64,000 bases of DNA from Haloarcula taiwanensis (GTDB lineage: Archaea > Halobacteriota > Halobacteria > Halobacteriales > Haloarculaceae): contig CP019154.1 in assembly GCA_002844335.1 (NCBI GenBank), positions 2,852,001 to 2,916,000 on the forward strand. The letters run 5' to 3'. Below the pieces are notes generated by a model. It saw nothing but the letters and a program-made list of their open reading frames with translations, was not told the origin of the DNA and ran no database searches. Shown here piece after piece: positions 33,138 to 34,093 of the stretch (position 1 is the stretch's first letter; each line of letters starts with the position of its first letter). Both the position numbers and the translations under genes were made by a program.

Positions 33138-33887
33138 CTACAGCCGCTCACAGACCTGCTTCCCGCTCACGACCTCAGGGATGATCACCTCGTCCGCTCC
33201 GACGCGGCGGGCCACGGTCTCGTCCTGCTGGTCGCCGGCCCGGACGATGAGCCGGACAGTAGGCGCGAGCTGGCTGGCAAGCACCGCGATCTGAATATTT
33301 GCGTTCGTGTCATCGATTGCACCGATGACGGTGTCGGCTCGCTTGACGCCCGCATCTGTCAGTGCGTCCTCGCGGCTCGCGTCAGCCTCCAGCGCGAGAT
33401 GGCCGTCATCAAGCGCCTGCTCGTACTGTTCTGCCTCCTGTTCGATGACGACCACTCGGGTGTCCGTATCGCCGATCTGCTCCGCGACGGTCCGTCCGAA
33501 CGTCCCGTACCCACAGACGACGACGTGGCCGTTCAGGTCCTTGATTCGCTGTGCGATTTGCATACGTGTGAGTTCCGTCTGAATCTGGCCGCCGAAGGCC
33601 GCCGACAGCGCTGTCTCACCAGTCCACAGCCCGGCGACGACGAGCCCAGTCAGTACGACGATGGCATAGCCTTTGACCAGCCTCGCAGGCCCGTCGTGGC
33701 TCTGAAAGTGGAGTTCGATGCTCGTGGGGTCGAGGAGCCAGAACAGTGCGTTGACGACGCCGACCCCGCCGAACGTGACGAAACCGACCACGCCGGCGAC
33801 GACAAGCCCGACGAACGCGAGAACTGGTTTCGAGAGTTGCCGGAGCAACGACCGGTCCGTGTCTGTACTGCTGTCGCTGAGTTCCAT
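33138..33887 (-). CDS. Two-helix RCK ion channel with an LDPTS pore (CASTOR/POLLUX-like)
   Basis: This 249-aa protein has TM1 at about 20-40, a pore-helix-like segment, TM2 at 70-98 and a RCK/TrkA-N domain (VVVCGYGTFGR, 123-132; VVVIEQEAE). Potassium channels have T-x-G-Y-G after the pore helix. This one has ALFWLLDPTS (47-56), resembling the LDPGT segment I recall in bacterial CASTOR/POLLUX-type channels. Selectivity therefore need not be for potassium. The RCK domain is short and lacks an obvious RCK-C half. The start at 33887 (MELSDSS) is preferred. Confidence 0.75.
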   Translation of the reverse strand: MELSDSSTDTDRSLLRQLSKPVLAFVGLVVAGVVGFVTFGGVGVVNALFWLLDPTSIELHFQSHDGPARLVKGYAIVVLTGLVVAGLWTGETALSAAFGGQIQTELTRMQIAQRIKDLNGHVVVCGYGTFGRTVAEQIGDTDTRVVVIEQEAEQYEQALDDGHLALEADASREDALTDAGVKRADTVIGAIDDTNANIQIAVLASQLAPTVRLIVRAGDQQDETVARRVGADEVIIPEVVSGKQVCERL

Positions 33888-33955
33888 TGCTGTAGCTATC
33901 GAAGGGAGCGACACAGCGCCGCCACAACCGGCGCTGGCGTAGTTCGCCGCTGAGT

Positions 33956-34093
33956 TCAGTCTGTCAGTGTCTCGGCAAGGGGTGTGTGCGGCTCCTCGAC
34001 GGGCGCGTCGTCGCCGCGGTCCATGCTCGGCGCGCGGCTCCGGTCCGGGTAGACCCGTTTGACACAGTCAGTACAATTGGTGACAAGTACCAT
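33956..34093 (-). CDS. Putative 45-aa protein with a CxxC motif
   Basis: A small frame reads MVLVTNCTDCVKRVYPDRSR followed by an acidic, proline-rich tail ending ETLTD. A CATATGTAT element about 25 bases upstream would give a leaderless mRNA. The acidic tail and CxxC fit the many tiny zinc-type proteins of this genome, but there is only one cysteine pair and I cannot name a family. It ends 68 bases before the channel gene's start on the same strand. Confidence 0.5.
   Translation of the reverse strand: MVLVTNCTDCVKRVYPDRSRAPSMDRGDDAPVEEPHTPLAETLTD

Follow-up and report, generated by a model that had tools for sequence, protein, structure and literature searches.

A haloarchaeal RCK protein family with a conserved D-P-T-S loop in place of the potassium-channel filter

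The window, a 64,000-nucleotide stretch of the 3.72-Mb Haloarcula taiwanensis genome (C1:2852001-2916000), contains a gene for a small membrane protein that, judged by its sequence, follows the plan of the MthK potassium channel with the selectivity segment replaced (Table 1). The loop between its two hydrophobic stretches in the hydropathy profile, FWLLDPTSIELHF, holds no T-x-G-[YF]-G motif and reads LLDPTS, in agreement with the initial annotation, which had reported the potassium filter as missing. No description of the family was recognised in searches of an open-access paper library, and the one named and annotated orthologue record, from Haladaptatus, carries only the label NAD(P)-binding protein. 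Since the K+ filter is lost, a selectivity other than for K+ is plausible, and the protein probably either passes other ions or has turned into a sensor. Our tentative reading, to which we give slightly less than an even chance, is an RCK-gated channel that does not select K+. Prokaryotic RCK channels with two transmembrane helices are taken as K+ channels on account of their filter, and haloarchaeal cells hold molar K+ inside against molar Na+. A widespread family under selection that lacks the filter would show how a K+ pore can be adapted to another ion or given up in favour of a sensor, and it would uncouple RCK gating from K+ selectivity; the small size of the protein (249 residues) suits structure work.

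Table 1. Features of the channel-like gene and its product, in window coordinates
Feature	Position	Strand	Basis
Gene for the 249-aa 2TM-P-RCK protein	33138..33887, stop codon included	minus	ATG-started frame
TM1 helix, residues 6-40	33768..33872	minus	AF2 model, hydropathy, alignment to archaeal K+ channels
Pore helix P1, residues 44-52 (VVNALFWLL)	33732..33758	minus	AF2 model and alignments
D53-P54 turn	33726..33731	minus	Alignment of 108 copies
Predicted second short helix, residues 55-63 (TSIELHFQS), at the K+ filter position	33699..33725	minus	AF2 model
TM2 helix, residues 68-97, with conserved K72, W88, G90 and E91	33597..33686	minus	AF2 model and conservation
RCK N-lobe (TrkA_N), residues 122-237, with GxGxxG at 126-131, E149 and D169	33177..33524	minus	

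Hydropathy, an AF2 model and a TrkA_N match together support the previously proposed plan of two membrane helices plus RCK, in the order TM1, pore helix, TM2 and RCK. The predicted fold includes the pore helix, a point on which the initial annotation had let its proposal depend, and a linker helix (residues 102-116) that lies between TM2 and the RCK domain. The model (single chain, 17 sequences) has a mean pLDDT of 83 and a pTM of 0.58, with pLDDT blocks of 83 and 79 in the region of the second short helix. A second model, calculated from six sequences and limited to the membrane part, is of low confidence (57.7), and because of this poor result the second short helix rests on a single model. 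With an upstream GTG at 33914 as start, the frame would be nine residues longer; the orthologue L009 has only four open residues ahead of its ATG. Among named relatives, four Haloarcula species come closest (91-96% identity).

Replacement of the filter is a property of the whole family. Comparison was made over 108 distinct frames, left after identical ones had been removed from 127 matches (126 loci plus the window; near-duplicates are retained). In none of them does the loop, fully readable in 106, contain GYG or GFG. A filter that is shifted but intact was considered and rejected: the four GFG matches of the family sit in TM1, and the single GYG of the window protein (residues 126-128) is the glycine motif of its RCK domain. 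Best hits to potassium channels with such a shifted filter had been named as the outcome that would speak against the initial annotation; the nearest membrane parts do belong to K+ channels, while the shifted filter is absent. Other channels of the same genome carry K+ filters, TVGYGD twice and TTGYGS once. The latter belongs to L087, a 544-residue channel with two RCK units encoded outside the window (G000:C1:2802470-2802652), which falls under the Pfam Ion_trans_2 cut-off (19.5 and 19.1 versus 22.5 bits). Altered filters also occur in RCK channels from other families in the phylum (L117, L119, L100 and L122), which read TTTGYGE (two), TTTGFGE and TTTGFEE; the last of these, in L122, misses the second filter glycine.

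Several residues of the loop region and of TM2 are strongly conserved among the 108 frames (W50 in 106, S56 in 99, W88 in 108 and E91 in 101). Position 53 is aspartate in 100, threonine or serine in seven and a gap in one; position 55 is T in 93, A in 7, E in 4, S in 3 and a gap in 1, and is never glycine; position 58 is acidic (E or D) in 95. All seven copies with T or S at position 53 carry glycine at position 58 (YWLITPENIGIHF is an example), which means that not every copy could form an acidic ring. These variants (L187, L190-L193, L196 and L210) have loops of the form YW(L/I/V)I(T/S)P and possibly possess another selectivity. Aspartate, serine and threonine are all permitted as helix N-cap residues. 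D53 could either line the pore or cap the second helix, and both roles are compatible with a channel lacking K+ selectivity. Position 72, located at the outer end of TM2, is lysine in 101 and arginine in six of the 108 copies, which is awkward for a cation pore.

We propose that, in a K+-channel scaffold, the conserved D-P-T-S loop, predicted to form a helix, a turn and a further helix, has taken the place of the TVGYG filter and of the last part of the pore helix. Four subunits would assemble into a cation pore without K+ selectivity, which the RCK N-lobe would open or close in response to a nucleotide (for example, NAD(H), ATP or ADP).

The main rival to this proposal, which we regard as possible but the less probable of the two, is a pseudochannel, in which the scaffold is kept, the pore is shut for good and the protein, anchored in the membrane, senses a nucleotide or serves as a platform for signalling. 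Four features would agree with it: the filter is absent from all copies, the bulky W88 of TM2 is present in every one of them, the RCK nucleotide motif is intact, and the seven variants have lost both acidic residues of the loop. In the HMMER alignment, however, the K+ channel L083 has a tyrosine opposite this tryptophan (MAFFT aligns TM2 otherwise), so a plug does not follow from W88 by itself. The pseudochannel also has no widely shared partner gene, and the pattern of divergence is unexpected for a dead pore. Four distant pairs (L022, L027, L030 and L033; 64-70% protein identity) were each divided into four segments, and residues 43-67 have pN values of 0.069, 0.102, 0.146 and 0.068, respectively, against 0.211, 0.198, 0.231 and 0.260 for the RCK domain. 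The loop segment is the least changed in three of the four pairs, the exception being L030, with a smaller value for TM2 (0.115); five close pairs show too few differences for segments to be ranked. This loop does not drift as a useless one should, which argues that it does work. A pseudogene was rejected, as segment dN/dS values are at most 0.37 (three values are not computable owing to saturation), and the family is a real one under selection.

The family is widespread among haloarchaea of the class. Its membrane-part profile (A2) matches 98 of 391 class genomes and 34 of 86 genera, and the whole protein matches 35 of 146 genomes of the taxonomic family (E <= 1e-20). When applied to a sample of 392 genomes from the phylum, A2 gives 20 matches, 18 of which come from the same order or nearer; the other two, L083 and L084, are TTVGYGD channels (E about 1e-3). 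Plasmid records yield one match to the membrane part, from Haladaptatus, and none of 17 pattern matches in viral sequences was confirmed.

Kinship of the membrane part to archaeal K+ channels is real but thin at the sequence level and extends through TM1 and P1 only. When A2 was compared by hhalign with 26 canonical channels from the phylum, TM1 and P1 (residues 16-52) matched with a probability of 76%, and the match ends where the filter would begin. Three MAFFT modes are concordant through P1 and place LLDPTSIE opposite TVTTITTV, HMMER opens a gap near D53-P54, and past that point the alignments diverge: ahead of TM2, MAFFT assigns about six more residues to the family, and fewer in TM2, against a net difference of about one with HMMER. 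The membrane profile scores 18.5 bits on L083, 17.8 on L084 and 6.2 on L098. With the whole-protein profile these archaeal TTVGYGD channels reach 107, 113 and 102 bits, respectively, mostly from the RCK domain. PF07885 matches none of 17 family members (E <= 0.001) and is absent from the Pfam list of the window protein (E <= 10); sequence comparison of the membrane part with solved structures returned nothing meaningful. In a Foldseek search, the top match over both membrane and RCK parts is MthK (E 2.2e-11, TM-score of 0.56 by query). Superposition on MthK (VIA Z of 18.8 and r.m.s.d. of 5.0 over 211 residues) is of a quality that RCK-only chains equal in score, and the two parts superpose together with an r.m.s.d. 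of 5 or more.

The RCK domain had been called unusually short, a description that does not hold. The domain consists of a single, complete N-lobe (TrkA_N profile positions 1-116 of 116, E 1.5e-28) and has no C-lobe, and the same is true of the TVGYGD channels L085 and L086 of the same genome, which end 30 and 27 residues past their own N-lobes. TrkA_C is found in none of the 17 members (E <= 0.001), 104 of the 108 frames stop 7-23 residues past residue 242, and the longest tail beyond that residue in any of the 108 (three of them truncated) is 46 residues. As the C-lobe is missing, formation of the usual gating ring is uncertain. A GxGxxG motif and an acidic residue make up the usual signature of a nucleotide site. 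The motif is intact in 107 of 108 copies and E149 is kept in 106, which makes nucleotide gating a fair inference; by GxGxxG and the acidic residue ending strand 2, the domain would be of the nucleotide-binding KTN type.

The origin of this RCK domain may differ from that of the pore. In a FastTree phylogeny of RCK domains (27 family and 29 other tips), the family groups with L002, L005, L006, L007 and L008 (support 0.989) and away from the K+ channels, its own branch having a support of 0.506. L002 and L007 are exchanger-type proteins with PF00999 (Na_H_Exchanger) and TrkA_N, and L005, L006 and L008 are small TrkA_N-TrkA_C proteins with no membrane family among their strong matches. Grouping with Kef- and Trk-type RCKs makes a mosaic with a K+-channel pore possible, and the protein may be such a mosaic. 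RCK profile scores run opposite to the tree and rank channel RCKs first (L087 with 87 bits and L098 with 80, against 62 for L005 and 59 for L002).

The same grouping bears on another alternative, in which the protein is an auxiliary subunit that joins, and modulates, a partner of the cell, either a canonical RCK channel or a transporter of the Trk/Kef type. It would be served by the 16 further RCK matches of the genome (E <= 1) and by the kinship of the domain to Kef- and KtrA-like RCKs encoded there. Against it, candidate partners share no widespread neighbourhood with the family, and the membrane profile scores only 0.1 and -3.1 bits on L085 and L086. We consider such a regulatory subunit improbable, and less likely than a closed, signalling pseudochannel.

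The genomic surroundings do not decide the function. The gene is flanked downstream by a convergent gene for an Fe-S/CCG protein and upstream by a divergent one for a MoCF-type protein. Neighbouring genes of 92 loci and the window were clustered, and an operon or constant partner was rejected on the 30 largest clusters: outside the family itself and its reverse-strand shadow, a single cluster spans twelve genera and the others six at most. The twelve-genera cluster is a same-strand frame, judged to be a shadow from one example. PADLOC gave no match to an anti-phage system. A 45-residue frame that begins MVLVTNCTDCVKRVYP lies on the minus strand upstream of the channel gene (window 33956-34093); tblastn finds matches to it in the loci of nine genomes, its own included, with 51-100% identity, the weakest being in L013 and L020.

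The initial annotation had suggested a relationship with CASTOR/POLLUX channels, and here the evidence goes the other way, profile scores favouring archaeal K+ channels. PF06241 (Castor_Poll_mid) is not among the 13 Pfam families that make up the complete list of matches of the 17 members (E <= 0.001), and it has no match in the Haloarcula genome at E <= 1; as a positive control, all three bacterial CASTOR-like proteins tested do match. The window protein shows one TrkA_N stretch and no second RCK unit, and neither the CASTOR filter AD(S/A)GNHA nor LD-x-G is present. Six bacterial CASTOR-like records (L088-L093), which come from plasmids, score 1.3-7.7 bits with the whole-protein profile and at most 3.2 bits (L089) with the membrane profile, in which only L083 and L084 stand clear. 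The hhalign probabilities of 0.2-0.3% are a weak test, as CASTOR-like proteins reach about 1% at most even against canonical K+ channels. Membership in CASTOR/POLLUX is rejected on Pfam and the whole-protein profile, and it is very improbable that the family, with its two transmembrane helices, is a true prokaryotic relative of these Ca2+ channels.

What speaks for that kinship is the aspartate right after the pore helix. After this helix, three of the six bacterial proteins read LDSG, LDAG and LDSG, one reads LTPG and two have neither. In L091 and L093, CASTOR-like proteins of Streptomyces plasmids, the pore loop lacks LD-x-G. Plant CASTOR is described in a published study as Ca2+-selective, with the filter AD265S(A)GNHA, and as losing its current in the D265N mutant (PMC6697748). 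The family may still work like CASTOR, by analogy and not by kinship.

Comparison with known systems sets the family among, and apart from, several types of RCK protein and pore. It shares with MthK-type K+ channels (solved structures 1lnq and 6oly; relatives L083, L084 and L098) the order TM1, pore helix, TM2 and RCK N-lobe, but has neither the TVGYG filter nor the RCK C-lobe, and its RCK groups elsewhere in the RCK tree. The RCK N-lobe is also common to Kef-type exchangers (L002 and L007), which differ in their Na_H_Exchanger membrane domain, and to KtrA/TrkA-like proteins (L005, L006 and L008), which differ in having TrkA_C and no membrane family in their strong matches. CASTOR, POLLUX, DMI1 and the bacterial CASTOR-like proteins bear RCK domains and, like the family, show no TVGYG in the loops seen, half of the six bacterial loops sharing the aspartate; unlike the family, they have further RCK stretches and, in the three tested (634-660 residues), PF06241. 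Pores of the Nav/Cav type are built as P1, filter and P2. The predicted helix, short acidic turn and helix of the family would be analogous to this arrangement, although the family has no voltage sensor; no Nav/Cav chain is among the best 50 Foldseek matches listed, which proves nothing. It is conceivable, if rather unlikely, that a P-loop with two pore helices and a D-P-T-S turn arose independently on a K+ scaffold, possibly with a Kef/Trk-type RCK. The family would then be a new class of RCK-gated channel that selects another ion in place of K+, such as Ca2+, Mg2+ or Na+, converging on the logic of CASTOR or of Nav/Cav channels.
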